From Owenia fusiformis (taxonomy: Eukaryota > Annelida > Polychaeta > Sabellida > Oweniidae), in contig CAIIXF020000001.1 in assembly GCA_903813345.2 (NCBI GenBank), forward strand, positions 33,624,866 through 33,688,865: a DNA stretch of 64,000 bases, read 5' to 3'. Under the pieces are notes generated by a model. That model saw only the letters and a list, made by a program, of their open reading frames with translations, ran no database searches and was not told the origin of the DNA. The position numbers and the translations under genes were made by a program. Positions 27,546-58,501 of this stretch are shown here, one piece after another; the first letter of the stretch is position 1; each line of letters opens with the position of its first letter.

Positions 27546-27551
27546 CCATGG

Positions 27552-32046: not shown

Positions 32047-32052
32047 ATACTC

Positions 32053-32517
32053 CAGGCCTGTCAACTTGGGAACACCTAACATGAGTGACTTGGAAATGTT
32101 GAACACCTCCCCTCAAAATGTGGACACCTTGATCCAAATCTGAACACCTTGATCCAAATTTTGAACACCTTGGTTTAAATTTATTACATCTTGCCAAATT
32201 TTGAACACCTCGCGTTTCAAACATCCATCAACGGGGGGGGGGAGGTACGGAAAATTTCGAACGGAATGCGTGACATATACATAATTCGCGTGAAAAGTAC
32301 AAACAAAATGCGTACATTTTTTTCCCGCGTTCGTATTTTTGCTGTGTAGATGATCTTTTTTACAAATTTTTCTTCAGAAATATTTTTGCTTGACAATTAC
32401 CAGGTAAAATGCGTATTTGCGTGACATTTTCTGTCACGCAAAAATAACTGGCGTGACTTCAAATTCTTCAGCAAATGCGTGACAAATACGCAAATTGCGG
32501 GACAGTTGACAGGCCTG
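32053..32517 (+). mobile_element. 6-bp-TSD TIR element, copy 1 (465 bp)
   Basis: Perfect 14-bp TIRs CAGGCCTGTCAACT are present at both ends. The 6-bp direct repeat ATACTC lies at 32047-32052 and 32518-32523. The interior has GAACACCTTGATCCAAAT minisatellite units, a poly-G run and the GCGTGACATTTTCTGTCACGC palindrome. It interrupts the roughly 150-bp tandem array, whose other units provide the empty site. Confidence 0.95.
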
Positions 32518-32757
32518 ATACTCATAAGGATTGCAAACTGTCTTATGACATTTTGGGTAGTAGGGGGCCATTTTAAAAAATGGCCACCATTTACATGTAC
32601 GTGTGTGCAATTTTTAAAAATTTTATATGTGGCTACTTATAAGCATATTACTTCTTCTGATGACAACTCGGCTAGTGAGCAATCATTTTGAAAATGGTGG
32701 CCTTTCTTATGTGTGTCATTTTTTATGATATTTGCTATATATTTTGTTTGTAAAAAA

Positions 32758-33066
32758 CTGCCCTGTCAACCCTCACGCATTAGGCGTGATTGTCACGCAT
32801 TTGCTGGAAAAATAGAAATCACGTATAATTTAGCATGTATGATCAAATATCACGCAAATCACGCATTTTTATGACCAAATATCATGCAAATCACGCATTT
32901 TGTTGAAATTTTAATAATCGTTTTTTGTGAAATGCCGACAAGGTAAAATATCGAACGGCGAAAAAAAGCGAACACATTCAGTTTGGTCTTAGCACGTGAT
33001 CGCCGTTTATGTCACGCATTTCGTACAAAATATGTGTATAAGTCACGCATTTGTTTCGAAAATATT
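32758..33066 (+). repeat. TGYCCTGTCAACCCTCACGC repeat, related to the 6-bp-TSD family
   Basis: It starts CTGCCCTGTCAACCCTCACGC and shares CACGCATTT words, the GGTAAAATA..GAACGGCGAAAAAAAGCGAA block and GTCACGCATT with the 6-bp-TSD family, but lacks its terminal repeats. Sister copies are at 40962-41255 and 52096-52340. The right border is undefined. Confidence 0.6.
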
Positions 33067-33314
33067 CACACCTATCTATTCTGATGACAGGTTGTTCTAC
33101 TCTCAAAATACATGTTCTCTTGTTTGCAAGATTTTTGTAAATTCTAATTAATGAATATCATGTACCAAAACTTAAAAACTGTCTAATATTTTACTCCAAA
33201 TAAACTTTATATATGTGTTCGATCGCTAATTTGTCTATTAATTAAGTTGCGCTTGCATTGTCTTTTAAAGGTTACACGTAGATAGATACACGCAGGAAAA
33301 CTTTACAATGTGTG

Positions 33315-33445
33315 TTAGTATTATGGCATTCGGTATAATGCCTTTCGGTACAATATACACGTAGCCGGTTTAATAAGTTTCGGTATAATGCGCATCGGTA
33401 TATATGCGCATCGGTACAATGGGTTTTGGTATAATGCGCGGACCA
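33315..33445 (+). repeat. TCGGTAYAATGCGCG minisatellite
   Basis: Tandem, irregular copies of TTCGGTATAATGC / CATCGGTACAATG. A second array of the same motif is at 45850-45955. Confidence 0.7.
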
Positions 33446-33544
33446 CGAGGTAAGGATTCTGGACACCTGCTTAGGAGGAAGCTTTTTCTCATACTTTCAA
33501 CTATCTCCTACATGCACCATCCAGGAACCTTGGCTGAACTTGGC

Positions 33545-35192
33545 GTGAAAGAAACTTTTGTCTAGGTCAAGGTCAAAGATCAAAATCTAGGTCAAATCAA
33601 AGTTTCTCAAATCCTGACTTTAATATTTTTAGCTGATTTTTTGCATACCGATAGATATTAGTATTCTATTAGTGTGTGCCTTTTGCCGTCTGGACAAATT
33701 TTGCCTAGATTTTGAGATATTGAAGGTCAAAAAAAGGTCAAAAAAGGTATTTTTTCAACTTGCTTCAAATTGACCAATTTTTTTTTAATAATCTACATGT
33801 TCTTAGGAACTCAAACCTGACCTTACTTTTGACCTGTGACCTTTGGTTGTCCTTCATTGACCTTCGGAAGGTCAAAACAGTTGATTTTTCAAATTGATTT
33901 TCTGAATTCAAATTTAGGTATGTTTGATCACAAAAGGACCACTCAGGTCTAGAGAAGTAAAATTTGCAAGGTCAAAGGTCAAGGTCATCAAACTAAATCA
34001 CAAACTGTGTTTTCTAAGTTTCTCAAAATTCCAGACTACAAATCAATATTTTTTAATGAAAGTCAGTTTTGAGATATCAGGATATTAGAACTCAAAAACT
34101 GAAAAAAGGTCAAATTTCCAAACTTTTCAAGACTAAATTTCAACTTGCTTCAAATTGACCTTTGGCTGACCTCCAAAAGGTAAAAAAGCTTGCAATCTTG
34201 GCATATATTTTTAGAAAAATCAAATTTACTTTGATATTCACAAATGTAGCCTAAGTAGCCTAGTTAGGACCTAAAAATGTTTAGAAAATTATTTTTGTGC
34301 CAGGCAAATGTCAAAAATGTGCCAAATTTGCCAAATCGGCAATTACGAAGTTTCTCAAAATTTGGTGCTTAATTCAAATATTTTTTCTTAAAATTAAAAA
34401 ATTAGATTGTTTTGAAGATGCTTCACATATTATCAATTCACATTGTTCAAAATATTTTCACTGATTTTGAGAAAAAGCAGTCAAAAATTGCTAAGAATAT
34501 GAAATATCTAAATACTTCAAATTTTCAATGTTCTTCAAATTTCTATTTTTTAAGTTCATTTCACCTGAAGCAACTTGACTTGAGCTTTTCATAACTGTCA
34601 TCCAAATTGAAATTGGGTCATTATTTATCGAGTTCTGGCCTTTCGGAGTTTGGCGAAACTTCACCCTTCCCGCTCCCAGTAACCCTCCCTTGTATTATTC
34701 ATGATCCTTCGATCGATAGATTGAAGGAATCATAAATAATCTTCTTGATACTTTTCCTACCCCTTCGGCCATGTTTTTAGTTATCCTATATATGCTCCTA
34801 CTAGGGACTGGGCTGGACTTGGAGGGAAAGGAATTTTTATCAAGGTCAAAGGTCAAATCTAGGTCAAGTCAAAGTTGTTTTTAAGTTTCTCAAAGCTTGA
34901 TACTACATTTCACTATTTTTGCCTGAGCTTTCACATACCGATAGATATTAGTATTCTATTAGTGCTAGCCGAAAGTAAGGTATAGAGATTTTTGATGTAA
35001 AAAAAACGGTAAAAATAGGTCAGTTTTCAAATTGCTTCAAATCAAACAAATTTTTTTTTTCAAAAGCATCTACTAGACGTCAGGAGTCCAAGACTGCAAA
35101 CCAATTTCAGATGTGACCCTTCGTTGACATTCTGGCACATTTTGAAGCAATTTTGGCATATATTTTTGGAAAAATCAAATTTACTTTGATAT
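33545..35192 (+). repeat. AGGTCA-rich tandem repeat, interrupted at 35193
   Basis: Two long units (about 33545-34600 and 34830-35192, resuming at 40051-40450) share AGGTCAAAGGTCA words, CATACCGATAGATATTAGTATTCTATTAGTG, GGCATATATTTTTRGAAAAATC and AATTATTTTTGTGCCAGGCAAATG. The second unit is split by the 35193-40050 element, while the first unit preserves the uninterrupted target. Confidence 0.75.
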
Positions 35193-35489
35193 TGTCGCGC
35201 GCCAGACTCCCGCCGAGTACCCGTACTCCCTCGGAGAAGGTCTGGTGGCGATGATAAGGGATTCGGAGGTGTTTCTCACGGGCGCCGAGCTGGTTTGGTG
35301 CTTCGGCTGACACTGAGCTAGGAGATGGAGAACACAGGAATGTACAAAACAATCAATTACGGGATTTTAATAATCTATTGAACACTATAATACAACAATA
35401 AATTTCACAAATGTCCTCAAATGCCTTTATGGCCAGTAAATCAAATATAAATGTCTCTATGTACACTGAGAATCAACACTCTGACTCCG

Positions 35490-35715
35490 AGTTGTTTGTC
35501 TCTGCTCTGCCTATCTGCTCTGCTGTCTACTCTGCTCTTTCTTTCTGTCAGCTCTGCTCTACCTTTCAGCTTCACTCGACTCTGCCTGTCGCCTCTGCTC
35601 TACCTGCTACAGTTGTCTGCTCTACTCGACCCTGCCTGTCAGCTCTACACTGCTCTGCCTGTAGGTTCTACTCTGCCTGTCTGATCTACTCGGCTCTGCC
35701 TGCTCTGCTGTGCTG
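35490..35715. repeat. TCTGCTCTGCCTG minisatellite
   Basis: Degenerate tandem copies of CTCTGCYTGTC / TCTGCTCTACC. The Ser/Leu/Cys-rich translations across it are artefacts of the repeat. Confidence 0.75.
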
Positions 35716-36786
35716 CATGTGTGGAAATCACCTTCAATTGGAGAATTCTAGCTCTGGACAGAGAAACTCAGGAATGTCAATCAAAGATGAGATTAGACCC
35801 AAGAATTCTGCCTCTGTGGTAGCAGGTCAGCCACCTCAATGGTCAGTCACATCTTGGTCGAAGTTGTTTCACTTCTGAGACTAATCAGCTCACGTGAGGG
35901 GAAGCACTCTTGCTCCTGGTTGTCACTCTCACTCCCTAGACACAGATAACTACCTCAATAGAAGAACGCTTGCTCTAAGTCGTCACCTCTCAGAAGTAGC
36001 CAACTCTCATCAATAGGAATACACTCTCTCTCAGAGTTGTCCCTCTCCTGGGAGTAGTCACTAATGTCAATGGGAGCTCCTCTTGCTCCGAATCGCCACT
36101 CTGGTCAGATGAGTAGGGAATATCAATCAAGGATGAGATTAGACCCAACTCACACACCTATGTGGGTGTAAGTACGTCTCTCCAACAAGAACACAACAGC
36201 TCTGGGCGAGATAACTCAGGAATGTCAATCAGTAAACTGAGATTAGACCAGAGTCAGACGCCTCCCGGAAGTTATCCAAGATGGCGGACACGCAATGAAT
36301 TATGGGAAGAAGATGAAGAAGAATTGAAGTCACAAAATGGCTATGCTGAATTAATGGATCAATACATCAAATCTATCAGAGAAAGGATCAACATAAATCA
36401 ATTAACACTCACAAACTGCAACTCTGCTAGGTGTCTCCAAGGCGCCTCTAGACTGCAACTTATATAATCAACGAATATATCTCTGCCAATCATAGATCCG
36501 GTCGCCAACACACAAGCAGCTAATAATCCAATAAATTACTGTTTGTAATCGTCCTACAAAACAGTGCAACACGCAAATATACTCCAAAAATGTCCTTTCT
36601 CCCCTTTGGAATCCTTCAGCTCCTTCAATGCCTTCAAATACTTCAATATTCCATCATAAAACAGTTTGTTCCATCACCTTCCGGCTATATCATCACTAAA
36701 ATCACTGTACAGATCTTGATACTTCGACACAAAAAGCTAGACTGCGCACATCAGCCCACACTCTGTCCTATCTCACTTCACTAATT

Positions 36787-37342
36787 ATATGCGGCGGGAA
36801 ACCCTCTGATTGGTTGAGCTTGTTTGTTTACTGCATTTGGTGTTGCATTCTGGATAATATTCATGAGCACTAATCCAGTTGACCTTTCTTCTTCAATATT
36901 CCATTCATATACAGGTTGTACCATTCTACTCCAGGGGTTCCCTCGGCAACAGAGCAAACACATCTCTACATGGTACACACATGAGCCATTGAACTCTATG
37001 AGTGAGTCGACTGACTCCACATATAAAAATACAAAATTAAACAAAAATGAAAATCACAATTTCGTCACAATATTGTGGCGAAATTTGTTTCTTCAGTGAT
37101 TTTATTTTACATGGACTTTGTCATTCTTAAGATGTTGTATCATTGCATTTGTTAATTTTGCCATTTTTTTTATATGTAGAGTCAATTGACTCATTTGTGG
37201 AGTTAAATTGCTCATATGAGTATGATGTAAAAATTAGAATTTGCATATTTGCCAGACATTGAGAGGCAAGTTACCCAGAATGCATCACAAAATGGGGTAA
37301 ACAAACCTAGTTCAGCCAATCAGAGGGTTTCCCGCTGCATAT
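36787..37342. mobile_element. Foldback element nested at the centre of 35193-40050
   Basis: The ends ATATGCGGCGGGAAACCC and GGGTTTCCCGCTGCATAT are inverted. Pairing extends about 70 bp through CTCTGATTGG and GTTTGTTTAC to TTGCATTCTGG. I did not find a clear TSD. Confidence 0.7.
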
Positions 37343-37780
37343 CATCACACAGGAGAGATAGCATAGAATCTGGCCCATGTGCTCAGTTGATTTTGGGAAG
37401 TTGAATGGACAAGACCTCGCGCAGTGTGGACATTGGAACATAGCAGACACATTTGTGAAGGACTTTATTGGATTGTTGGTGTGTATTTAGTAGAATACAA
37501 GGAGCAGTTGATGATCGTGTAGCGATAGGATTTGCGTATAGTATAAAGCGTTTTTGGATTATATTCGTGGCTGATTGTCTGCAGAGAAGTGTTGGTGAGT
37601 AGTAATTTACGTTGACTTTGATGTCCCTAGATTTTTTTTTTATTGTCTTTTACGTTGGATCTAATCTCAGTTGTGATTGACATTTCCAATTGTTAAAGAC
37701 ATTTTCTGCAGTCCAGAAGTCCTTCATATACGATATTCCTTGTCCAAGTTATTGTCTGTGTGATCACCATATTGGATCGC

Positions 37781-38260
37781 CAAAGTGTTGAACCGCCATC
37801 TTGTGACGTCACCCTTCTTCTACCCAGCATTCCCCTTGATCCGCCATCTTGGACTTCCGGGAGATAACTAACTCTGGTCTAATCTCCCCAGGGATTGACA
37901 TTCCTGAGTTTTATATCTCTCCGAGCAGGGATACTCCAAAGTGTTGAACCACCATCTTGTGACGTCATCCTTCTTCTACCCAGCATTCCCCCTGATCCGC
38001 TATCTTGGATTTCTTCCGGGAGATAACTAACTCTGGTCTAATCTCCCCAGGGATTGACATTCCTGAGTTTTATATCTCTCCGAGCAGGGATACTCCAAAG
38101 TGTTGAACCGCCATCTTGTGACGTCATCCTTCTTCTACCCAGCATTCCCCCTGATCCGCCATCTTTGATTACTTCCGGGAGATAACTAACTCTGGTCTTA
38201 TCTCCCCAGGGATTGACATTCCTGAGTTTTATATCTCTCCGAGCGGAGATACTCCAGAAG
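37781..38260 (+). repeat. Tandem array, three units of about 150-160 bp
   Basis: Each unit carries GTGTTGAACCRCCATCTTGT, GACGTCAYCCTTCTTCTACC, CATTCCCCYTGATCCGC, GGGAGATAACTAACTCTGGT and TCCCCAGGGATTGACATTCC. A single inverted relative at 36205-36290 lies in the other arm of the host element. Confidence 0.8.
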
Positions 38261-38439
38261 GTGTGGCTCATATCTGTAGGAGCAAAGATACTCCAGAAGG
38301 CGTGTTTCATATCTGTCCGAGCAAAGATACTCCAGAAGGCGTGGTTTGAGCAGAGATACTCCAGACGGCGTGTTTTTTTGTGACTCCCTGAGCAGTATTA
38401 CTCCAAGAGCTGTGACCCCGTCTAAAAGCAGTAATTATT

Positions 38440-39560
38440 ATCCCATCGAACGAAGTTCGGAGGGATATAGGGAACGCCTCCGTCCGTCCGTCCGTCCGTA
38501 CGTACGTCCGTCCGTACGTACGTCCGTCCGTCTGTCCGTCCGGGCAATAACTCAAATACTGTTGGCCCGATTTTGTTCATATTTTGTACACATATACCCT
38601 ATCGGGGTAGAAGTTCTGCTCGAAAGCCGATTTTCAAAATGGCCGCTCATTTCAAAATGGCGGCCATTTTAGTGCCGATTTTACAGTAATTTAGGTGTAA
38701 TATGTAAAACTGTAATAGCAATATGTTTTAAATGTAAAAAATTATAAAGGACATTAATAATGCTACAAATGTAGATATTAAAGAAGCACATGGCAGCCAT
38801 CTTGAAAAATGGCGGCCTTTACTCGTCACTTTACGATTTTTGCTATAACTCAAAAAATAGTGGAGCGATTTTGTTCATTTTTGGTATGTGAATACTATAA
38901 GCATTGCACACTGTCTAAAGACACTTTTGGTAGAAGGCGGCCATTTTGAAAAATGGCCGCCATTTTAACATATTTTACTATAACTCGAAAAGTAGTGGAG
39001 CGATTTTGTTCATATTTGGTATGTGAATACTACAGTCCACCCGCTATGGCTCAGTGGCAGAGAGAGTCAAGGTTACCAATATTGCTTGGCCCCGGGTTCG
39101 ATTCCCGGTTCAGACAAGTTTGTTTGTGCGTTATGTAATTCTGGGTGTTTGACTGAGTGGTTCACGACTCGTATAAAAGGCTGTGGTGTGTACCTGTATG
39201 TCTGTGTACCTGTGCACATAAAAGAACACAGGGCTCCTCCAAGGAGGGGTTTCTGGCTCTATCTTCGAGTGTAAAATACGTAAAATACTGAATATACCAA
39301 TGAGGTATTGCTCGCCAAATATGGCGGTAACCAAGATATAATAATAATAAGCATGGCACACTGTCTAATAAATTTTTGGGGCGTAGTCGGCCATTTTGAA
39401 AAATGGCCACCATTTTTATGTGTGTTATTTTACAAGTACGTGTGCGATTTTTCAAAAATTTTAGAGGTGGCTACTTAAAAGCATATCATTTCTTCTGATG
39501 ACAACTTGGCTAGTGAGCAACCATTTTGAAAATGGTGGCCTTTCTGGTGTGTTGTTTTAT
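38440..39560 (+). repeat. GTCCGTCC repeat with CGATTTTGTTCATATTTGG units
   Basis: The head GAAGTTCGGAGGGATATAGG is followed by (GTCC/GTAC)n at 38481-38550, then the leader and units seen at 30.9-32.0 kb (GGCAATAACTCAAATACTG, GTAGTGGAGCGATTTTG, GGCCATTTTGAAAAATGGCC). It is interrupted by the SINE at 39033-39350. Confidence 0.75.
39033..39350 (+). mobile_element. tRNA-derived SINE
   Basis: The pol III A box TGGCTCAGTGGCAGAG (39047-39062) and B box GGTTCGATTCC (39095-39105) lie 48 bp apart, with a CCCGGG..CCCGG T-arm-like stem. They are followed by a non-tRNA body containing GTGCACATAAAAGAACAC and GGGGTTTCTGGCTC and an (ATA)n tail at 39338-39350. It interrupts the tandem unit GTGAATACTATAAGCATGG, which gives the empty site. 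The parent tRNA cannot be assigned because the anticodon region is lost. Confidence 0.85.
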
Positions 39561-40453
39561 GATATGTGCTATTCGTTTGTAACAATGCCAGCCATTTCTG
39601 TTCGATGGGATTCGCTACGCTTTGGCATTGCCGTTGTTCTGGTTTGTGAGAGGAAGAGACTCCCGGGGTACTCTACCGGAACAACAACACTCCGAGAGGA
39701 AGTATAGTGGAAACTACTTGGAGGGGCCCTTTACCAGAAGTAATTCCAACAGCTAGACAAGCTCCAGAGCTGAGCAGATCCCCCTACAGAGACGAGACAA
39801 CTCTTGAATATAGACATAGTATCACATGGACATTGTGTCATTTATTGTACACACTTATGTTGAAATAGAGTATAAAAATCCCGTATAACATTGTTTTGTA
39901 TATGTAAAAGCCATCTTCTTAGCTTCAGTGTTAGCCGAAGCACCAAATTAGCTAGGGCGCCCGTGAATAATATCTCCGCATCCCCTCAATCGCAACCAGG
40001 TCTTCTCCGAGGGAGCATACGGGTCCTCGGCGGTGATCTGGCGCGCGACAATATTCACAAATTTAGCTTGAAAAGTAGCTTAGTTTGGACCTAAAAATGT
40101 CTAGAAAATTATTTTTGTGCCAGGCAAATGTCAAAAATTTGCCAAATCAGCAATTAGGAAGTTTCTCAAATTTTCTTAAAATTAAGATTAAAAAAAAATT
40201 AAAAAAATTAAGATTAGATTTTTTCGAAGATGCTTCACATATTATCAATTTACATTGTTCAAAAAATATTCACTGATTTTGAGAAAAAAAGCAGTCAAAA
40301 AATGCTAAGAATATGAAATATCTAAATACTTCAAATTTTCAACGTTCAGTATTTCAAATTTAGGTCAAATTTTGAAATTTTTCAAGGTCAAATTTCAACT
40401 TCCTTCAAATTGAACAAATATTTCTTTATACATCCTCTACAAGTTGCCTATAC

Positions 40454-40955
40454 CAGGCCTGTCAACTTGGGAACACCTAACATGAGTGACTTGGAAATGT
40501 TGAACACCTCCCCTCAAAATGAGGATACCTTGGTCCAAATGTGAACACCTTGGTCCAAATTTTGAACACTTTGGTTTAAATTTTATTACATCTTGCAAAA
40601 TATTAAACACCTCAAATTTTTCGCGCTCGCTACGCTCGCATTTAAAACATCCATCAACGGGGGGGGGGGGGGGGGGGGCGAGGTACGAAAAATTTCAAAC
40701 GGAATGCGTGACATATACGTAATTCGCGTGAAAAGTCCGAACGAAATGCGTACGTTTTTTTCCCGCCTTCGTATTTTTGCTGTGTAGACGATCTTTTTTA
40801 GAAATTTTTCTACAGAAATATTTTTGCTTGACAATTACCAGGTAAAATGCGTATTTGCGTGACATTTTCTGTCACGCAAAAATAACTGGCGTGACTTCAA
40901 ATTCTTCAGCAAATGCGTGACAAATACGCAAATTGCGGGACAGTTGACAGGCCTG
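40454..40955 (+). mobile_element. 6-bp-TSD TIR element, copy 2 (502 bp)
   Basis: CAGGCCTGTCAACT TIRs are perfect at both ends. TSD CTATAC is at 40448-40453 and 40956-40961. It carries a longer poly-G run (40660-40678) and an extra CGCTCGCTACGCTCGC block compared with copy 1. Confidence 0.95.
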
Positions 40956-40961
40956 CTATAC

Positions 40962-41255
40962 TGCCCTGTCAACCCTCACGCATTAGGCGTGATTGTCACG
41001 CATCTGCTGGAAATCACGCATCAATTTAGCATGTATGATCAAATATCACGCAAATCACGCATTTTGTTGATATTTTTAAAAATTGTTTTTTGTGAAATGC
41101 CGATACGGTAAAATACCGAACGGCGAAAAAAAGCGAACGCATTCAGTTCCGTCTTTGCACGCGATTGCCGTATATACCTGTATGTCACGTATTTAGTACA
41201 AAATATGTGTATATATCATGCATTTGTTTCGAAAATATTTACACCTACCCCCCCC
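40962..41255 (+). repeat. TGCCCTGTCAACCCTCACGC repeat, directly abutting copy 2
   Basis: It begins immediately after the right TSD of copy 2. Content is as at 32758-33066, with CACGCATCTGCTGG, CACGCAAATCACGCATTTTG and CGAACGGCGAAAAAAAGCGA. Confidence 0.6.
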
Positions 41256-41479
41256 CCCAAATTGACACATTCTCTCCTCTAAAGTGTAATTGTAAAAGAT
41301 GTATTACATGTAAAAAGAAAACAATAAATGTAAAGTTAATTAGCAATGGCTGTATAATATCCAAATTATTGGTATGCCACAGTTATATGATCAATTCAGC
41401 TATAACTATATATGGGAATGTGTTCATATTTCTTCCAATTCCTGAATCCTCGAAATGCAAAAATCTTGAAATATGAACA

Positions 41480-41540
41480 CTTCTTTATCTAAACGCTTCA
41501 ATTAGGTCCATGTTGTGTTCAGATTAGATAGGTTTTATAC
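41480..41540 (+). mobile_element. Decayed pogo-like right end beside the PDE4 exon
   Basis: GAACACTTCTTTATCTAAACGCTTC, then a GGTCC..TTCAGATTAGATAGG stretch and GGTTTTATACTG, resembles the right end of 42844-43310, with substitutions. It ends about 60 bp upstream of the splice acceptor at 41602-41603. Confidence 0.45.
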
Positions 41541-41603
41541 TGTTTATGTTATGATAGTGAATATTTTCTTTATTTTAACTTCTTCTTTTTGGTGTGGTTT
41601 CAG

Positions 41604-41705
41604 GCATGCTGATGATTTGATTGTGACACCGTTTGCTCAGATCTTGGCCAGTCTTCGTAGTGTAAGGAACAACTATATAACCCTGACACAGGTCTCAACA
41701 AACAA
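41604..41705 (+). CDS. PDE4: PDE4 UCR1 exon (cAMP-specific phosphodiesterase 4)
   Basis: The 102-nt exon lies between a strong acceptor (polypyrimidine TTCTTCTTTTTGGTGTGGTTTCAG, cut here only for reading as ..GGTTTCAG at 41603) and donor GTAAGT at 41706. It encodes [20 protein letters not shown] then [32 protein letters not shown] is the signature of upstream conserved region 1 (UCR1) of PDE4, which precedes UCR2 and the catalytic domain and mediates autoinhibition, dimerisation and PKA control of this cAMP hydrolase. The exon is symmetric (enters with one completing nucleotide, leaves with two: phase 2 on both sides). I could not find the neighbouring UCR1 exon, UCR2 or catalytic exons in this window, so flanking introns appear very long. 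The divergent TQVSTN end suits the known variable UCR1-UCR2 linker. No damage is visible, so I read it as a functional exon. Confidence 0.93.
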
Positions 41706-43165: not shown

Positions 43166-43310
43166 TAGTTAAAAGAACTATAAATATTTATTGAGAATTT
43201 GTACCTATTTCTTCAAAATCCAAAATCTTTCAAATGCAAAACCTCAAAATGTGAACACCTCCTAATCCGAATGCTTTAAGCTGGTCCCTTGGATAAGACA
43301 GGTTTTACTG
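42844..43310 (+). mobile_element. Pogo/Tigger-like MITE (467 bp)
   Basis: The ends CAGTAAAACCTGT and ACAGGTTTTACTG are inverted. TA dinucleotides flank it at 42842-42843 and 43311-43312. The interior repeats CACTTCCCAATTTGAA and AATATGAACAC words. The termini match the Tc1/mariner pogo group. No transposase ORF. Confidence 0.85.
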
Positions 43311-43329
43311 TAGGTACAATCCCCTCTAA

Positions 43330-44945: not shown

Positions 44946-45400
44946 CATATCAAATATGAACAAAATTGCTCCACTACTTTTCAAGTACAGCAAAAATTGT
45001 AAAATAGCGTGTAATTAATGGTGGCCATTTTCAAAATGGCCGCCTTCTTGCCAAAATATCATAAAACAGTGTGCCATGCTAATAAGTAGTCACATATTAA
45101 ATATGAACAAAATCGCTCCACTACTTTTCAAGTTATAGCAAAAATTGAAAATTCGTGTGTAAAAGCCGCCATTTTTCAAGATGACTGCCATGTGTTTCTT
45201 AAATATCTACATGTCTAGCTTAATTAATGTGCTATATAACTTTTTTACTTTTAAAACTCATTGCTATTACAGTTTTATATACTGTACCTAAATGACTGTA
45301 AAATCGTCACTAAAATGGCCGCCATTTTGACACAAGTGGCCATTTTGAAAATCGGCTATCGAGCAGAACTTCTACTCCCATAGGGTATATGTGTCTGCAT
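44946..45400 (-). repeat. Inverted copy of the CGATTTTGTTCATATTTGG tandem family
   Basis: Two units with CACATATCAAATATGAACAA and CTCCACTACTTTTCAAGT, a GGCCATTTTCAAAATGGCC palindrome, and the leader GAGCAGAACTTCTACTCCCATA read inverted relative to 30.9-31.1 and 38.6-38.8 kb. Confidence 0.75.
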
Positions 45401-46669: not shown

Positions 46670-46714
46670 CGGGCGGGCGGGCGTCCCAAATAATCTTGTC
46701 TACAGGTTTCCAGC
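46670..46714 (+). repeat. Left stub of the 49.9-kb tandem array
   Basis: GTCTACAGGTTTCCAGCCAAACTG is the unit start of the array at 49921-50710, separated from it by the insertion of copy B. Confidence 0.75.
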
Positions 46715-47187: not shown

Positions 47188-47569
47188 CAGGCCTGTCAAC
47201 TGTCCCGCAATTTGCGTATTTGTCACGCATTTGCTGAAGAATTTGAAGTCACGCCAGTTATTTTTGCGTGACAGAAAATGTCACGCAAATACGCATTTTA
47301 CCTGGTAATTGTCAAGCAAAAATATTTCTGTAGAAAAATTTCTAAAAAAGATCGTCTACACAGCAAAAATACGGACGCCGAAAAAAAACGTACGCATTTC
47401 GTTCGGACTTTTCACGCGAATTATGTATATGTCACGCATTCCGTTCGAAATTATTCGTACCTACTTGGATCAAGGTGTTCACATTTGGACCAAGGTGTCC
47501 ACATTTTGAGGGGAGGTGTTCAACATTTCCAAGTCACTCATGTTAGGTGTTCCCAAGTTGACAGGCCTG
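47188..47569 (-). mobile_element. 6-bp-TSD TIR element, copy 3 (382 bp)
   Basis: Perfect CAGGCCTGTCAACT TIRs; TSD CACATG at 47182-47187 and 47570-47575. It is the shortest complete copy, lacking the poly-G run and part of the GAACACC minisatellite. It sits inside copy B of the MULE-like element. Confidence 0.95.
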
Positions 47570-48291: not shown

Positions 48292-49112
48292 TGGTACCGA
48301 AAGATTTGTCCGCTGTGACGGAGCATGCTATTTTTCATAAAAACACTAAGAATGCTTCACAATTTATTTTTTAACTCATATGTTTCATTATATCAAAGAT
48401 AATTACTTACTCCATGCAATGGATATATCATTTGCGCGTAACCTTCACTTCTGTTTGAAGTCCAATAAAGCTAGGAGTAAAATCTATTGAAAAACGGCGC
48501 AAGAGTATGAAACTCTAAAATGTACCATTTCTTTTTTAACTTTTTAATGGCAAGATATAGTGACACGATAATATTAACATATGTTTTCAGCATAACTCTG
48601 AATGTATTAATAAGATATTAATGCATTGGGTCTTTTTAATTTTTTTTATAAAAAATAATATTAATATTTTTTGTCCATTGTGACGGAGCATTTTTACAGT
48701 TCACATTTGCAACTGCTCCGTCACAGCAGACAAAAAAATTAAACATTATTTTTTATAAAAGAATTAAAAAGACATCTCATTTATACCTTCATAGTTATGC
48801 TGAAACCATGTGTAAATATTATCGTGTCACTATATCGTGCCATTAGAAAGTTAAACAAGAAATGATACATTTTGAAGTATGATACTCCGGCGCCATTTTC
48901 AATAGCTTTTCTTCCCAGCGTAATTGGACTTCAAACAGAAGTGAAAGTTACCCGCAAATGATATATCCATTGCATGAAGTAAGTAATTTTGTATGGTATA
49001 ACGAAACATATGAGTTAAAAAATAAATCGTGAAGTATTCTTAGTGTTTTTATGAAAAATAGCATGCTCCGTCATAGCGGACAAATATTTCAATACCAGCC
49101 TGTGGTTTAGGG
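48292..49112. mobile_element. Near-perfect palindromic element, about 820 bp
   Basis: The two arms of about 400 bp, from the CACAGGCTGGTA ends through GTCCGCTRTGACGGAGCATG inward, pair almost to the centre near 48700, where only about 25 nt (TTTTTACAGTTCACATTTGCA) remain unpaired. Copy A, which lacks it, gives the empty site TCTCCCTATACTAC, suggesting a TA or very short duplication. GTGACGGAGCA recurs at the loop edge. No ORF. Confidence 0.85.
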
Positions 49113-49929
49113 AGATGTGAAAAATATTGCATACACTGTATGTTATAAAAGGGGTGAAAAATACTGTAAATGGTATAAGAGGGGTGAAAAATTTGTATAT
49201 AGATTTCCAAGACCCCTATAAACCCCCCTTTCATGTTTGCTTTAGTTTTTCTCAATTTGATTTTAGATTTTAAAAGTTTGAAATTACATCAGTCCCAGTT
49301 AATTACATTACCTATTTTACCAGGAATATTGTTAAAAACAGAATCATCTTGAGTATTGTATTTTCATTTTATTTCATGTAGATCTAGATTGGAATTAAAG
49401 TTTTAAATAGAGACGATTTGAAAAGTAATGTAAACCTGACCAGCGTGTTTTATCATTGCCCGGTAATTGGCCGTAAATAATTATCAATTTTTAGTTACTC
49501 ATGTTCTTTCAGGTCAAATACAGAGAAAAGTACACGTTCATTTAGTTTTGGAATTATTTCCTAAATTAAAGTTGAATTCTGTTTTTTAACGGTGTGAAGA
49601 ACATCTTAATTGGTCTTATATTTTTAGAGAAATAGTAACTTGAAAAGTGTAATTTTTGAGAGCTTTGTTTATTTTGTGCGGCCGCAAAGTTCACATCAAA
49701 GTCTGATTGACAGGTTAGCGGTGATTTATACAGCCTTTGAAGTGTCAATGTTTTGACAAGTTCCCAGGGAATCATAACCCTAATTATACATGTCCCTGGG
49801 CAAAAGATATAGACCAATCATAAACATGCGCTTAAAACATGCGCACAGATCGTTGGGGAAGGATCATTTTCTATTAGTGCGTTGGCGCGCTAGCGCGTAG
49901 CGCGTGTTTTCATTATAACCCAAACTGTT

Positions 49930-50960
49930 TGAGGGATTCATTTGAAATTCTCAGGGATGTTTCTACCTATGAAAGTTTAGAACTGATTAGTTTTTCGGCA
50001 TTCTGGGTAAATGTTAAGGCGGGCATTTTGGATTTTTCGTCCTAAAATCTTGTCTGTCAAGCTGCTTGTCTACAGGTTTCCAGCCAAACCGTTTGAGGGA
50101 TTCATTTGAAATTCTCAGAGATGTTTCTACCTATGAAAGTTTAGAACTGATTAGTTTTTCGGCATTCCAGGTAAATGTTAAGGCGGCCATTTTGGATTTT
50201 CTGTTCTAAAATCTTGTTCGCAAGACTTGTCTACAGGTTTCCAGCAAAACCGTTTGAGGGATTCATTTGAAATTCTCAGGGATGTTTCTACCTATGAAAG
50301 TTTAGAACTGATAAGTTTTTTGGCATTCTGGGTAAATTTTAAGGTGGCCATTTTGGATTTTCTGTCCTAAAATCTTGTCTGTCAAGTCTTGTCTACAGGT
50401 TTTCAGCCAAACCGTTTGAGGGATTCATTTGAAATTCTCAGGGATGTTTCTACCTATGAAAGTTTAGAACTGATTAGTTTTTAGGCATTCTGGGTAAATG
50501 TTAAGGTGGCCATTTTGGATTTTCCATTCTTAAATCTTGTCTGTCAAGGCTTGTCTACAGGTTTCCAGCCAAACCGTTTGAGGGATTCATTTGAAATTCT
50601 CAGGGATGTTTCTACCTATAAAAGTTTAGAACTGATTAGTTTTTCGGCATTCTTGGTAAATGTTAAGGTGGCTTTTTTGGATTTTTCGTCCTAAAATCTG
50701 TGTCTGTGAAGGCTTGTTTTAAAAAATAAAAAAGAATTTCCCATTGAGAGCAATGTTAAATTAAAACATTTTTTTAGAAATAACTAAACGGTCAATCTTT
50801 CCAATTTTCACATATTTTGTAATACATCAGAATATCTTTTACCAGAATTTTTTCAGGAAAATCTGAATTGTAGAAAAAAAGCTGATATCCTGTGAAGTAA
50901 TACCTAAAAACGTGTCTCTTGAGGGTTGTTTACAGGTTTCGTGGATTCATCCTAAAATTT
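49930..50960 (+). repeat. Tandem repeat, units of about 165 bp
   Basis: Five to six units, each with CTACAGGTTTCCAGCCAAAC, GTTTGAGGGATTCATTTGAAATTC, AGTTTAGAACTGATTAGTTT, GGCATTCTGGGTAAATGTTAAGG and GCCATTTTGGATTTTC. The last unit after 50710 is diverged and interrupted. Paralogous to 1-950. Confidence 0.85.
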
Positions 50961-51009
50961 TAGAGATGTTTTTATGGAAAATTTAGAACTGATTAGGTAA
51001 ATGTTAAGG

Positions 51010-51944
51010 TGGCCATTTTGAATTTTCCATCCCGAAAAGTGCATTCTGTTCAAGGGTGCGATGCTGTTCACCGTGTGGCTTATTTTTATTTGGGAACATA
51101 TATTTTTTTTATTATTAGAGAACCCAGGAAAGCAAAACATGTACAACAATTACTATTACTAATTAAGCTAATGGCCACTTGGCTTGGTGTATTTCCATAC
51201 TCATTTATAAAGTTCAAAAGACTAGCGCGTTCTTATAAATAAATAAATGAATAATGCAAACCACTTTGTTTTTATTCAATACAAGATATTATTGAAATAG
51301 ATTTTTTTTGCATGTTACATAATATAAGCTTATGTTGTTACAGTTTATAGCATGCTATTTTATTAATTTTGATACTGTTTTACTGCTGCCGCTGCAGATG
51401 TTTATTTCTTCTGAATATTTAGCAAATATTGTGGTGAATACCTGTACATCACAAGTGATACTAGTATTCCACGAATCCCCCCCCCCCTTTGAAAATCCTG
51501 GATGCGGGCCTGGGTATCAATGCTGAATTTTGATATTCATTTTGAAACACCACTACGACTGGCCACTACACTACAGTATGACTCGCTATTGCTCAAGTCA
51601 TATAGTATGCATGTATGAATGCGTGAAATCTCTCGGTATCGAATGTCGCGATCGGAACATTCACTGGTTTAATCCCCTGACACCATTGTGTGATCTACTG
51701 CAAGTATAACCCTTTGGAATTCCAAAGGCTTAGATAAAGTGAGACTCCCATAGGTCAGAATGTCCCGACACACGAAATCAGAATGACAGAACAAATAATT
51801 TTGAATACCATGGCCAGAGACTAAATCTATGTGTGGGAGGTAGGGAACCGCACAATTTCTAATTCCAATGCTGCCCTTGTGTTTTATCAACGTTATACAA
51901 TGATGCAAACAAAACAGATTGTAATAAATCTTATTCTAATTTTA
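51010..51944. other. Unassigned stretch
   Basis: No supported gene. A hAT-like edge (CCTGGATGCGGGCCTG) with a poly-C run lies at 51478-51513. Confidence 0.4.
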
Positions 51945-52422
51945 ATTCCTACAGGAATGTACTAAAAACCCTTCGACCTACGACCCTTCGACCCTACGAC
52001 TTATTGGGTGTCAAGAATTTTTGGAATATATTTTATTGAAAAACCCTTCGACCTCTGATTTCCCAGTCCAGTTTAATAAATGATTACGTATACTGCTCTG
52101 TCAACCCTCACGCATTAGGCGTGATTGTCACGCATTTGCTGGAAAAATAGAAATCACGCATCAATTTAGCGTGTATGATCAAATATCACGCAAATCACGC
52201 ATTTTGTTGAAATGTAAAAAAAAAATTTTTGACACGGTAAAATACCGAACGGCGAAAAAAAGCGAACGCATTCCGTTCGGTCTTTGCATGCGAGTGCCGT
52301 TTATGTCACGCATTTGGTACAATATATGTGTATATACACCATTAAAAAGCTTAATTCACCGATAATTTAAGAAAGGAATGTACTAAAAACCCTTCGACCT
52401 ACGACCCTTCGACCCTACGACT

Positions 52423-53480
52423 TTTTTTTTTTTTAATCATTTTATTTAACCTAGAAGGTAACAGTGTACAAGTACCATTATAACCCTCTAGGGTTCTACA
52501 ATATATACATTACAAATAGCATGTAAACTTAAATAAAACTTAAATAAATATGTCAGATGAATCTCTGGGTGTGTTCAATGAACTTCTGTACGTGAGTAAA
52601 TATAGTTAAATTATCGTTGACGGATATGGCATCACTGCCATGTATAAGTAATTGGATTTTTGAATGTTTTGCTAAGTTCCGGTAGTTCCCAGTGTTCCCA
52701 ATATCTCTCACTAGGGTGGCACGTGGGGCAGCATAAAGGGGACAGTCAAAGAGAAAATGAGAGATATCTTCTTTAAAATAGCCACAAGGACAGTTTTGAA
52801 AGTCAATAAGATGATAAGAAAAACGCTGAGCATTCAAAGCACTAAGACCCATACGAATTCGAGAATGATTGATTGATGATCTGCTTGCCTTTAAGGAATA
52901 TAGTGGATTTTTGGGATTGCAATGGGATAGTTTGTATTTGTGTTTGAAAAGAGGAAGGTAGCTGATGCTTTTAAGTTCTTCGCTTAGATTGTTCCATTTA
53001 TTTAAAATATAAGGTAGGAAAGAGGAGGAGGTCATTTTTAATCGGCAGTGGGGTAATCTAAAATCATGGATGTTTCTGAGTGAGTATCTCTGTTGGGGGT
53101 TTTGGATGAATGGTTGAATCAGGTCACTTAGGTATTGGGGTGCATTTTTATTAGAAATTTTATGAAACAGGAATAGAGCATGCATTTCTCTTCTTTTCTT
53201 TAATGTATCCCAGCCAAGCTCTTTCAAAATATTATTGTAGTTAGTGTGTCTATAAGCTCTGGTACATATAATTGCTGCATCCCTCTGAACTTTTTCTAAG
53301 ATTTTGCTTTGGTTATCAGTACAGTTATTGTATATGACATCACAATATTCTAAGACAGATCTTACCATTGAAAAGTAGAGAGTTTCTAAGTGTTTTTTAT
53401 CAAGATTGTATCTAAAAGCAGATCTTTTTATTAGGGATAGGCGCTGATTTGCTTTTGAGGCAAGTTTATTTATATGAGAG
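52423..53480 (-). mobile_element. 5'-truncated LINE with 15-bp TSD
   Basis: A poly(T) run at 52423-52434 (poly(A) on the element's strand) marks the 3' end. The 15-bp direct repeat TTCGACCCTACGACT is at 52408-52422 and 53481-53495. The nearby uninterrupted copy at 51990-52010 gives the empty site. Confidence 0.93.
52553..53479 (-). pseudogene. LINE ORF2 C-terminal region, frame intact
   Basis: The frame is open from the truncation point (HINKLASKANQRLSLIKRSA) to the stop, without a break. RSVLEYCDVIYNN, then LEKVQRDAAIICT and LKELGWDTLKKRR are the post-catalytic region typical of Jockey/CR1/RTE-group LINE polyproteins. The C-terminal CPCGYFKEDISHFLFDC has C-X-C-X8-H-X4-C zinc-knuckle spacing. 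The endonuclease and the catalytic reverse transcriptase motifs are missing by truncation, so it cannot act alone. The lack of stops or frameshifts, with the clean TSD, implies recent insertion. Confidence 0.9.
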
Positions 53481-53608
53481 TTCGACCCTACGACTTACTG
53501 GGTGTCAAACATTTTTGGAATATATTTTATTGAAAAACCCTTCGACCTCTGATTTCCCAGTCCAGTTTACTAAATGATTACGTATAGTTCCAACTTGAGC
53601 TCCCTGTG

Positions 53609-53790
53609 CACGCAAATACGCATTTACCTGGTAATTGTCAAGCAAAAATGTTTCAGTAGAAAAATTTCTAAAAAAGTTCGTCTACACTGCAAAAATACGA
53701 ACGCCGAAAAAAAAACGGACGCATTTCGTTCGGACTTTTCACGCGAATTACGTATATGTCACGCATTACGTTCGAAATTTTTCGTCTTAT
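53609..53790 (-). repeat. Internal fragment of the 6-bp-TSD family
   Basis: Shares CACGCAAATACGCATTTACC, GTAATTGTCAAGCAAAAATG, CGTCTACACTGCAAAAATAC and CACGCGAATTACGTATATG with 47280-47460, but both terminal repeats are missing. Confidence 0.8.
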
Positions 53791-54233
53791 TTTACTTTTT
53801 TACTAAAACTTGAAAAGTAGTTGAACGATTTTGAGATCAAAAGTTCGATGGGATTTGCTCCACCTCGTGTTGCTGTTATCTAGTTCTGAAATGTTTCATA
53901 TCTATGTCTAATAAATATAGTTGTATAGATGTGTTTGTAATAACCTTTATGCCCTTAAAATGTATATATTCAGGGGGGGACATTCGTGGGTTCAAGTGGA
54001 CCACTCCATTGGCCAAATATTCTCTCAAAATCAATACAATTTTTCACGATTCTGAGCATTTTCAAGATTTCTGGGCTACTTGAAAATTGTCAAATGTTCA
54101 CCCGTTGATCCTTTTGAAAAACTTAAATTGGCAAAAGCTGGTTATACGAACCTGATATGACCTAGCTTGCAAGCTTTTTCTTGACGGTTTGTGTTTATTT
54201 TCTTTGTACCCTTGCATGCTTTGGATTTTGTAG

Positions 54234-54351
54234 GATGCAAAACAAAGAATCTACTTATTTAGTTGGCATTAGATTCTTAACTCCTGAAAATATGCACGAT
54301 GCGCCACTATTACAATGTGATGGGAAAAGCACAAATATTTTTACTGAGGAG
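54234..54351 (+). other. Exon-like ORF, unknown
   Basis: A 118-nt segment lies between a polypyrimidine-rich acceptor (GGATTTTGTAG) and donor GAG|GTAAGA. It reads MQNKESTYLVGIRFLTPENM then HDAPLLQCDGKSTNIFTEE with no stop (enters with one completing nucleotide, leaves in phase 0). I do not recognise it. It sits inside the 51954-54883 element and may be captured or derived from a transposon gene. Confidence 0.3.
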
Positions 54352-54508
54352 GTAAGAAACGTTCACATTCGAATGTGCTTGAATACATTAAACCTGCACA
54401 TCGCTCCAAAACGCAATATGTTGACATATATTGTTTTTACATTTTAAATAAAAAAAAAATTATTTGCGTAATGTCAAAGAACAATCATTTAGTTAAAAAA
54501 AATAAAAA

Positions 54509-54572
54509 GGCGAATGCGGGATTCGAACCCGCTAGGCGAGCATTCTTCCGCTAGACCACCGTGATTTTATGA
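54509..54572 (-). pseudogene. tRNA-like relic (A and B boxes, no anticodon arm)
   Basis: On the minus strand the A-box-like TGGTCTAGCGGAAGAATG is followed after a few bases by a perfect T arm (GCGGGTTCGAATCCCGC) and then TTTTTATTTTTTT, a pol III terminator-like run. The anticodon arm is deleted and the acceptor strands do not pair, so it is not a functional tRNA. It may be a tRNA pseudogene or a SINE head. Confidence 0.6.
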
Positions 54573-55184
54573 ATGGTGGAAGTAATTAAACGCTACTTAT
54601 TTTGAATGCTATGATTCGGAAGTGACGTCACGTTTCTTCATTTAGAAACTTTTCCAAAATCATATCGCCGGCTCCGATCGAAGCCCAGCTTTAAATATCT
54701 TTAACTCTCTTGGGACAGATTCTTAAGTTCTATACACAAAGTAATATTTCCGGCAACTTCATATGGACTGAGAAATATCTAGAAGATCGAAGGGTTTTTA
54801 TAAAAATATATTTCAAAAATTCTTGACACGCTGTAAGTCGTAGGTCGCAGGATCGAAGGGTCGAAGGGTTTTTAGTACATTCCATTCCTACATGAAATCT
54901 CAACCCCCCAAACACTGGTGACATTTGAAAGACTTTATCTAATTCATGTAATTCAAACAATCAAATCAAATCAAAAATAATACATGCAAACAGGTATATC
55001 TGCTTATGGAGGAATATCCGAGGAAATGTATGACACCGGTTTTCAGCCATCGCCCTGAAAGGCAACTTATCTGCTTATTATAAGTTATCAAATAATTTAA
55101 CAATAAACAGAAACGCAATGCATGCCAAACATTTATCTATTGTTCCCAAGTGAAAAAATCCAATGGACGTTGCATATTAAATGT

Positions 55185-55465
55185 CGACCTTATACCGACC
55201 TAATGTAGTTGTCTAATACCGAACTAATACCGATGAAATCCTTCTAAAATTTATCGTGCAAATGAGCTAATTTAGAAGTCCTGTCAGCCAATCAGCTTTA
55301 ACCAAATACCGACCTAGTACCGATCTTAAATAGCTCTAATAACGATGCACCGGTATAGGACTATGCTATTTAATATGGCTTTAGTGAAACTCCAATACCG
55401 ATCAAGTACCGATCAAATACTGATTCATCGGTATTAGACAGGGATATTTGATACCGCTCTAGTAC
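55185..55465. repeat. Scattered ATACCGAYCTAGTACCGAT words
   Basis: TACCGACCTA, ATACCGAACTAATACCGATG, AGTACCGATCAAATACTGAT and similar words recur irregularly about every 20-40 bp. Too diverged for a fixed period. Confidence 0.5.
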
Positions 55466-55499
55466 AGCCCTAATACTGATCAAATACAGATGAAATCCG

Positions 55500-55885
55500 G
55501 TGTCTTCCCATTTCGCCCCTTCCAACTTTGCCCCTTCCCATTTCGCTCATCATTTATTCCCATTTCGCCCCAACCCATTTCGCCCTTTCCCATTTCGCCC
55601 CTTTCCCAAATTGCCCCTTTCCCATTTTGCCCCTGTCCCATTCTGCCCCCTTCCCATTTCGCCCTTCCTTCCCCCTTCGCGACATGGGAAGGGGCGAAAT
55701 AGGAAGGGGAGATAAGGGAAAGGGGCGATATGGGAAGGAGGCAACACGGGAAAGGGGTGAAATGGCAAAGGGGCAAAATGGGAAGGGGCGAGATGGGAAA
55801 AGGGCGAAATTGGGAAAGGGGCAAAATGGGAATAAATGAGGGGCAAAATGGGAAGGGGCGAAGTGGGAAGGGACGAAATGGGAAT
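55500..55885. repeat. Inverted minisatellite (CCCATTTCGCCCCTT)n
   Basis: About 12 units of a 15-bp motif on one strand (55503-55680) meet about 13 units of its reverse complement (55684-55885) at CCCCCTTCGCGACATGGG. The whole forms a 380-bp imperfect palindrome. AAATCCTTCTAAAATTTATC flanks it on the right, with a copy at 55238-55257. The His/Phe/Ala/Pro-rich frames on both strands are artefacts. Confidence 0.9.
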
Positions 55886-56199
55886 AAAACATGAAATCCT
55901 TCTAAAATTTATCATTTAATAATCAATATCATATTTAACATTTTGGATAATTGGTCACCCTAAGAATGTTTAATATAGCAGCTAGTAACACAGATCTTAT
56001 GACGATGCTTCTGTTTCAGCCTTTTGCCTTCTGATTAAAATTAATATAATGATATGATGTATGTCAACAGACATGCAGTAGCTCTAACTACATATTAGTA
56101 CACCTAAAAGCTCCAAACGACTGTTTGTTATTTTGTGATGTAGTACTGAAGTGCTCAAGACCAAATCTGGTTCTGGCCTATTACATGTATTAATTAATT

Positions 56200-56540
56200 C
56201 ACATGCAAAGTCCAAAGTTTTTTCAAAATTCTCTCGCAAAAACTACAGATTTTGTCAAAAATCTCATGCAAAACTACCACTTTTTGCAGAATTTACCGCA
56301 AAAACTATTGCTTTTATTAGAAAAAAACTGGAGATAATCTGCTTTTTTTTAAAAAAAAGTACCGTTTTTTTTCACCATAAAAACGATCCAGTTGTTTCAA
56401 AATTTACCTAAAAAACTCCAGATTTTTAAAAATCTACCACAAAAACTACCAATTTTTTTTAAAAAAACCTCCCGTAAAAACTACCAGATTTTGGAAAAAT
56501 CTCCCGTAAAAGTACCACAATTTTTGGAAATATCACGCAA
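56200..56540 (+). repeat. Degenerate AAAAACTACCAGATTTT tandem repeat
   Basis: About ten units of 28-32 bp such as CGCAAAAACTACAGATTTTG and CCGTAAAAACTACCAGATTT. Confidence 0.7.
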
Positions 56541-56726
56541 ATTGTTCATTTTAGGTTGGCCCTGGGTATGTAAGATGATATATAAGCAATTATTATGTTA
56601 CATCACTGGTAATTTTACTCATTCAGAATTGTCCTGAAGGCAAGAAGGCTCACAGTTATTGAAGGACCCTCTAGGCCTCCAGCAGTATTTATCTTCTTCG
56701 TTTTTTTTCGTCGTTCGGTTTTGTGG

Positions 56727-56901
56727 TGTATCGTCGATCTTTTTTGAAAATTTTTCTACAGGAATATTTTTGCTGGACAATAATCAGGTAAAATGCGTAT
56801 TTGCGTGACATTCTCTGTCACGCAAAAAAAACTGGCGTGACTTCAAATTTTCCAGCAAATGCGTGACAAATACGCAAATTGGGGGACAGTTGGATGGCCT
56901 G
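56727..56901 (+). mobile_element. Right-end fragment of the 6-bp-TSD family
   Basis: It matches the right third of copy 1 (GGTAAAATGCGTATTTGCGTGACATTCTC.. onward) and ends AGTTGGATGGCCTG, a mutated form of the terminal AGTTGACAGGCCTG. The left end is missing. Confidence 0.8.
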
Positions 56902-57024
56902 TTTTCATACTATTGTTATAAAATCATGAAATTACCCAAATCTCTTACAGTTGAACATTCTTTGTCAGCCATTTTCTTTTGGTTTAAAAAGAGCGGGAAA
57001 TTTAACACCGATCTAGTATAGATG

Positions 57025-57381
57025 TCGTTTTTGATAGCAATATTTGCGTGTAATATTTAACTTATTTCAACCGTCAAATTCCTCCATTCAGTTCCCAGCA
57101 TGCACCAGTCATAAGGGAAATCACTGGGGAATTCCCCTTCCGACATTTTGAAAATTGCTGATATATTTCCGATGTAAAAACTAAAATCTCTTCGTTCTGC
57201 CGATAAACCCATACAATTGGCGATCTAACAACATAAAAAGAATTCTAAAATACTAAGGAATGTATCGAGGTAGGTCATTTAGGTGTGCAATGCGTAGTAT
57301 TTTCTCCAACTTTGTAAAAACATTGACTGACCAATTATACGCGCGTACGACCACAATCTAAAGGGCTCGTAGGATGCGATA
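57025..57381 (+). mobile_element. Fragment of the 8047-type foldback element
   Basis: Equivalent to 8248-8603: it shares GATAGCAATATTTGCGTG, CATGCACCAGTCATAAGGGA, CTCTTCGTTCTGCCGATAAAC and the terminal GTAGGATGCGATAA. The left arm is absent. Confidence 0.85.
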
Positions 57382-58030
57382 AGTTAAATTGGAGTATCTT
57401 TTGATTCTTTTCCACTGAGGTACGCATTCGATCTAATATCGTACTTCAATATTTTTGTTTTTACGAAATGAAAACAAGATCTTTAATGTAAACATCTGCA
57501 TTTCAAGTCAATTTTATATATCCTGAGATTATCATAGAATACTTCTGTGAATCCCAAGCACTGCAGCCCATTACAATGGTCTATCAGTCAATCTGTATTA
57601 TAACAAATGTATACCAATCCTGAAAACATTTCAAATATATTTGTCTTTGACTTATTTGTTTGAGAGGGGCACGAAATGTCAGAATAAAAATCATTGATTG
57701 TCCAACTTCAACGTATAATCTATGTGTAGATACATAATGACAGACTTATCTTGCTAAATAATCATTGTGATTTGCCCGTCTGGAAGGTTATTTTATAGAT
57801 TATAATAGGACCTACAGAATGTTAAAAGGATTTTTACATTTTTAAGACAGCAATAGTTATTAGCGACTAAAACTAGTTCTAAGTATACTTTTTTTATTTA
57901 ATGTTCAAGAACTTTAATAGTGGAGACACAATTTTTACCCGCACAAGACATAATCTAACTCTCAAGAAATATTATTGTGAGTTTATAGATGTTTTCTTCG
58001 ATCCTCTGAAGTACACATAAGTTGCACGAT

Positions 58031-58501
58031 CAGGCCTGTCAACTGTCCCGCAATTTGCGTATTTGTCACGCATTTGCCGAAGAATTTGAAGTCACGCCAG
58101 TTATTTTTGCGTGACAGAAAATGTCACGCAAATACGCATTTTACCTGGTAATTGTCAAGCAAAAATATTTCTGTAGAAAAATTTCTGAAAAAGATCGTCT
58201 ACACAGCAAAAATACGAACGCCGGAAAAAAATGTACGCATTTCGTTCGGACTTTTCACGCGAATTACGTATATGTCACGCATTCCGTTTGAAATTTATCG
58301 TACCTACCCCCACCCTGTTGACGGATGTTTGAAACGGGAGCGTAGCGAGCGCGAAAAACTTGAGGTGTTCAAAATTTGGCAAGATGTAATAAAATTTAAA
58401 CCAAGGTGTTCAAAATTTGGATCAAGGTGTCCACATTTTGAGGGGAGGTGTTCAACATTTCCAAGACACTCATGTTAGGTGTTCCCAAGTTGACAGGCCT
58501 G
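58031..58501 (-). mobile_element. 6-bp-TSD TIR element, copy 4 (471 bp)
   Basis: Perfect CAGGCCTGTCAACT TIRs; TSD CACGAT at 58025-58030 and 58502-58507. Same layout as copy 1 in inverse orientation. Confidence 0.95.

Follow-up and report, generated by a model that had tools for sequence, protein, structure and literature searches.

A young family of short transposable elements with mostly 6-bp target duplications in Owenia fusiformis and its possible mobilisation by a P-type transposase

Which transposase moves a family of short elements that carry no recognisable transposase of their own? This question is raised by a stretch of 64,000 nucleotides of the Owenia fusiformis genome (contig CAIIXF020000001.1, positions 33,624,866 to 33,688,865; hereafter the window), in which four elements of about 0.5 kb share identical terminal inverted repeats (TIRs) and are each flanked by a 6-bp target site duplication (TSD). 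The analysis presented here identifies them as members of a real cut-and-paste family of miniature inverted-repeat transposable elements (MITEs), about 0.5 kb in size and recently mobile. Whether these young MITEs were moved in trans by a P-type (THAP9/Pdre2-like) transposase, or by a close functional equivalent acting with a 6-bp stagger, is in our judgement evenly balanced.

Copies, ends and target duplications of the MITE family

The two subterminal halves of the element are designated end A, which contains a GAACACC minisatellite, and end B, which contains GTCACGC repeats; a G-run lies in between. The following members of the family are present in the window:

32053..32517, + strand: complete copy A, 465 bp; end A left; TSD ATACTC; related repeats that are not interrupted occur in the window and at loci L045, L101 and L019
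40454..40955, + strand: complete copy B, 502 bp; end A left; TSD CTATAC; sits at the tip of a related, older element
47188..47569, - strand: complete copy C, 382 bp; end A right; without consensus positions 106-215; TSD CACATG
58031..58501, - strand: complete copy D, 471 bp; end A right; TSD CACGAT
53609..53785, - strand: fragment without a terminus; 93% identity to copy B across 178 bp
56699..56901, + strand: fragment whose end B is degraded; 88% identity to copy B across 203 bp

The sequence CAGGCCTGTCAACT occurs without mismatch at both ends of all four complete copies, and the window holds 10 matches to this 14-bp end at up to two mismatches (8 of them exact), compared with a mean of 0.26 after shuffling. 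The TIR is exactly 14 bp long: beyond it end A reads TTGGGAACACC... and end B GTCCCGCAATTTGCG.... The A-to-B orientation is on the + strand in copies A and B and on the opposite strand in copies C and D. The first eight bases of the TIR, CAGGCCTG, are palindromic by themselves. A first-pass annotation, made from the window alone, had described the perfect terminus, a different exact 6-bp repeat around each copy and fragments at 53609 and 56727; all of this was borne out, the last coordinate falling slightly inside the second fragment. Copy A is hosted by a dispersed repeat (GATTTTGTTCATATTTGGTATGTGAATACT...), several copies of which are present in the window (31268-32600, 38794-38965 and 45017-45117).

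The same annotation had proposed a genome search with the 14-mer ends. In the 498-Mb assembly (525 contigs, of which C1-C12 measure 32-62 Mb each) the exact 14-mer was found 1,989 times (1,006 and 983 times on the two strands), versus 0 for the reversed control, which corresponds to about a thousand copies at most. Places were listed for 100 of the 1,989 exact termini, all on C1. All 29 listed facing pairs shorter than 1 kb, the four window copies and eight further pairs, drawn from loci in which the TIR is followed by a non-standard base, formed a sample of 41 complete copies, which favours young copies because both exact 14-mers were required. The 32 loci with such a non-standard base comprise copies, older relatives and degraded copies, some of them alike only near the end. 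Left out before the TSDs were counted were L041 (one false pairing) and L002 and L001, both above the length limit of 1 kb.

The TSD measures 6 bp in 38 of the 41 copies and 7 bp in two (L052 and L129; ATATACA and GTATATG), and is lacking in one (L018). The description of the duplications as strictly 6 bp long therefore holds for the window copies and is slightly too strong for the family. One might suppose that the hexamers arose by chance or in the assembly and that the units are an interspersed satellite and no transposon. Apart from the minisatellite content of end A nothing speaks for this idea, which we regard as practically negligible: six or seven flanking bases are common to both sides in 40 of the 41 copies, whereas left flanks paired with the right flanks of other copies shared six bases in 4 of 1,640 combinations, and never more; the hexamer is mostly different from one copy to the next; and there are pre-insertion sites, in which the element is absent and the target hexamer is single. 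These sites were sought by comparing the joined flanks of 40 copies with the loci read, which gave 70 junction-spanning matches, 24 of which were examined. The empty site of L013 is represented in L074/L075 by three matches of 96-98% and a fourth of 90%, that of L019 in L001 (94%) and that of L022 in L117 (91%), while older repeats match the joined flanks of L007 (87%) and of window copy A; a few of the 24 proved to be other insertions rather than empty sites.

Among the 38 sites with a 6-bp TSD, the target hexamer shows a weak palindromic pattern (CAnnTG). By a test devised after the data had been seen, A at position 2 or T at position 5 was counted in 40 of 76 cases (12-31 in twelve shifted frames), and C at position 1 or G at position 6 in 30 of 76 (8-16 in the same frames). 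The centre of symmetry is the middle of the six target bases, as expected with a 6-bp stagger. Another apparent target signal, T at position -3, was noted in unoriented sites and disappeared once the sites had been oriented.

Divergence from the consensus is low, with a median Kimura two-parameter distance of 0.024 and values below 0.06 in 34 of the 41 copies (L018 is an outlier at 0.49), which supports the recent activity already suggested by the intact ends. The consensus is 492 bp long and the copies measure 197-908 bp, with 38 of the 41 falling within 354-511 bp. The first-pass annotation attributed this variation to changes in the poly-G tract and the minisatellite; this is correct in part, but 16 of the 41 copies show an internal gap of 30 bp or more relative to the consensus. 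The breakpoints are mostly different and are located mostly at consensus positions 62-302 (one reaching 467), clustering near the G-run and the GAACACC minisatellite, a pattern that fits independent internal losses, e.g. by gap repair after excision.

The longest ATG-started frame in the 41 copies encodes 137 amino acids and a Pfam search of two frames overlapping copies gave no match; the family thus has no recognisable transposase. Short, numerous, bounded by matched TIRs and flanked by direct TSDs, these elements have all the features of MITEs. Since nothing transposase-like is contained in the family copies, the source of the enzyme must be elsewhere in the genome, as had been supposed.

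Candidate sources of the transposase

The terminus is a guide to this source. The TIR in the form CAGGCCTGTCAAC is identical to the end CATACCTGTCAAC of the zebrafish P element Pdre2 in 11 of 13 bases, and the variants CAGACCTGTCAAC, behind which end A follows, match it in 12 of 13. An agreement of at least 11/13 would arise by chance with a probability of 1.1e-5 (1.3e-4 once the leading CA is taken as given); the terminus had been compared with the published ends of a few superfamilies before this match was obtained. The genome also contains 13 places that match PF21787, the core of P-type transposases, four of which have the same score (72.4 bits) and lie in open frames of 227, 452, 591 and 591 amino acids:

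C2:10986184, C4:29370493, C10:19101834 and C11:2203561: P-type transposase matches (PF21787) of equal score
C7:36774173: a further one of the 13 PF21787 places

The equal scores and the open frames of these four matches hint at recent P-type activity in the genome. Together, the similarity to Pdre2 and the presence of P-like transposases make a P-type enzyme the putative source. According to the mechanism that we propose, a P-type transposase made elsewhere would bind the ends of a MITE of about 490 bp, with its 14-bp TIRs and two unlike subterminal halves, and would excise it; the excised MITE would be joined to a target at a 6-bp stagger between the strands, preferably at CAnnTG, and repair would leave the 6-bp duplication. 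More tentatively, and with rather less confidence, we suggest that a P-type lineage whose stagger changed from 8 to 6 bp may have built a whole clan of MITEs, with the termini CAGGCCTGTCAACT, CAGCCCTGTCAACC, CAGACCTGCCAACC and perhaps the long CAGTACTGTCAACC. The clan would have a P-like terminus and TSDs of 6-7 bp in common, and the family studied here a palindromic CAnnTG target as well.

Several observations weigh against a P-type source. The terminus compared is short (13 bp) and was set against a single P element, and a CA start is shared by further superfamilies within this catalytic group. In the loci read, MITE ends were not seen to enclose a P-like transposase, and by eye none of the 13 PF21787 places lies near a listed clan terminus (of the 1,989 exact termini, the 100 listed are all on C1). 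Nor does the subterminal repeat of Pdre2 (12 bp) have a significant counterpart, the best agreement being 10/12 on one side, which was equalled in 368 of 2,000 simulated sequences. The P-type elements for which TSDs were seen described all have duplications of 7 or 8 bp (PMC10983969, PMC4168063, PMC1562414; published statements are cited here and below from excerpts of the papers). The observed lengths do not agree with this rule, and the family was for that reason not filed as a P element; it would be a 6-bp variant. An occurrence of CATACCTGTCAAC in L139 was set aside, since by eye it looks like coding sequence of an aldose epimerase gene (Pfam match of 26.5 bits, just below the cut-off of 27).

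A different enzyme, a hAT transposase of the hAT6 group, might mobilise the family, the CAG..CTG termini then being hAT ends. Such ends are frequent in hAT elements, and one hAT family in the genome has the end CAGAGGCGTAGC. Transposases of this superfamily are abundant here, with at least 138 matches to PF05699 among the 150 of 183 candidates that were scored. The TSD length of hAT6 is exactly that observed, 6 bp (PMC12730594, citing Kapitonov and Jurka 2007); moreover, as hAT5, hAT6 and hAT7 duplicate 5, 6 and 7 bp, respectively (PMC12730594), the earlier exclusion of hAT elements by TSD length does not stand. We consider this source less likely than a P-type one. The 14-bp end was found with up to two mismatches at none of the 60 hAT places read out of the 138 (20, then 40 more, each over 1.6-1.8 kb downstream of the C-terminal domain, on that side only), and two matches with three mismatches were all that was seen there. 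Two near cases, L101 and L137, have a hAT gene with a related end downstream of it; these were rejected because the hAT families concerned stop earlier, at other termini. Should hAT6 nonetheless prove right, the family would be just another member of a known group.

Still less probable, in our view, is a source in a superfamily that was not considered or is not yet described, the likeness to Pdre2 being the result of convergence among transposases with the C/DxxH signature. It would accord with the failure to find an autonomous copy in the loci read (in a search that did not extend to MuDR and Kolobok transposases), and is opposed by the improbability of the terminal identity arising by chance. 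The genome has few matches to KDZ (10, by eye none near a listed end) and four to DUF4371, and the 6-bp TSD disagrees with the 8 bp of the KDZ-bearing Zisupton group (PMC12730594). Dada and IS3EU, which the first-pass annotation named among the superfamilies with about 6 bp, are both poorer fits by their ends, and its list of excluded superfamilies omitted the P superfamily, a zebrafish member of which has a nearly equal terminus.

The longer element with the same ends and an open reading frame (ORF), which had been proposed as a target of the search, was not encountered in the loci read. L002 (3,409 bp, with a 6-bp TSD) contains an insert with a reverse-transcriptase-like ORF, recognised by eye, and L001, 6,972 bp from end to end, is really two separate copies. 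A second family with related ends (family 2) was rejected as an autonomous source because the copies first read have a single fixed end, as were copies with CAGACCTGTCAACCTC, which are located within a larger repeat. The ORF beside end A in L037 and L053 was rejected as the transposase because it is part of a different repeat, for which 108 matches were scored in the genome. This repeated ORF of 82 amino acids (MSILRWLVRP...; L037, 250-600), flanked by TACTGTATG/CATACAGTA and without a Pfam match, looks like a piece of some other transposon.

Related families and other features of the window

Pieces of a diverged sister family accompany the MITEs in the window:

32758..33031, - strand: sister family piece; end CTGCCCTGTCAACCCTCACGC at 32758; about 67-75% identity to the copies in matched pieces
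40961..41256, - strand: sister family piece; end CTGCCCTGTCAACC at 40961, with a G-run towards the other side; abuts copy B
52093..52314, - strand: sister family fragment; end CTGCTCTGTCAACC at 52093

The first base of the second piece is the last base of the TSD of copy B, which is inserted at the tip of this piece. The three pieces belong to an older family with the end CAGCCCTGTCAACCCTCACGC, which elsewhere includes L142 (141 bp), with an end A resembling that of the MITE studied here and a 6-bp TSD, and L143, with five of six bases duplicated. In another older family, with the end CAGACCTGCCAACCTC, the TSD is 7 bp in L144 and L145 and 6 bp in L146. The CAGTACTGTCAACC family (family 3) forms units of 4.5-4.7 kb with extensive inverted repeats (L074, L075 and L076), in which no ORF was recognised as transposase-like; in L076 two same-strand CAGTACTGTCAACC ends lie 4,689 bp apart with an equal flank, as in a tandem array.

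Other repeats in the window include ORFs at 1787-3970, 27472-28916 and 52553-53494, which by eye, and without a search, resemble pieces of LINE reverse transcriptase, and tandem repeats of 119 bp (13.3 copies, 58975-60575), 162 bp (4.9 copies, 49920-50717) and 159 bp (3 copies, 37780-38256). No Rfam family reached the gathering threshold in the window.

Comparison with known systems

A text search of the literature for the termini returned no paper (the contents of Repbase and Dfam lie outside that search), and nothing relevant was found on MITEs of Owenia or on hAT elements, MITEs or annelids in connection with a 6-bp target. The core CCTGTCAAC combined with the word transposase led to work on zebrafish P elements as the relevant match. 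TSD length is widely used to assign non-autonomous elements to superfamilies, and this family shows how such a practice may mislead: judged by its sequence features, it would be hAT6 by TSD length alone and P-like by its terminus, and the 6-bp TSD led to Dada and IS3EU, whereas the terminus suggests P. Its copies, up to about 1,000 and many of them young, provide a good data set for studying target choice and the origin of internal deletions.

Among the systems described so far, Dada elements differ in lacking TIRs and in targeting small RNA genes (PMC3706591), while the present family has perfect 14-bp TIRs and varied targets. IS3EU/GingerRoot elements are similar in their TSDs, which are usually 6 bp, but have TA..TA ends (occasionally TG..CA) instead of the CAGG..CCTG of the MITEs (PMC10045372); in fungal IS3EU the ends are TAYGG..CCRTA (PMC12730594). 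The resemblance to the Repbase group hAT6 was assessed by the 6-bp TSD (PMC12730594); the ends of the MITEs were seen at none of the 60 hAT loci read.

Closer parallels are offered by the P superfamily. Pdre2 and the zebrafish P-like elements derived from it share with the MITEs the similar end and a short TIR, and internally deleted copies are found elsewhere; Pdre2 differs in its 8-bp TSD and in its 12-bp subterminal inverted repeats (PMC10983969), the latter not significant in the MITE family. Anopheles gambiae likewise has P-element-derived MITE families, but with 8-bp TSDs, and the P elements of this species have TIRs of 27-31 bp (PMC1562414). Galileo, a P-superfamily element of Drosophila, resembles the MITEs in a TSD that is shorter than the usual 8 bp and varies by one base, and in its palindromic target; it differs in the TSD length itself (7 bp, consensus GTATTAC in D. 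willistoni) and in its very long TIRs (PMC4168063). Because Galileo duplicates 7 bp, and 8 bp in three copies (PMC4168063), the length of the P-type duplication is evidently not fixed. If the source of the Owenia MITEs is indeed P-type, the P superfamily would cover TSDs of 6, 7 and 8 bp.

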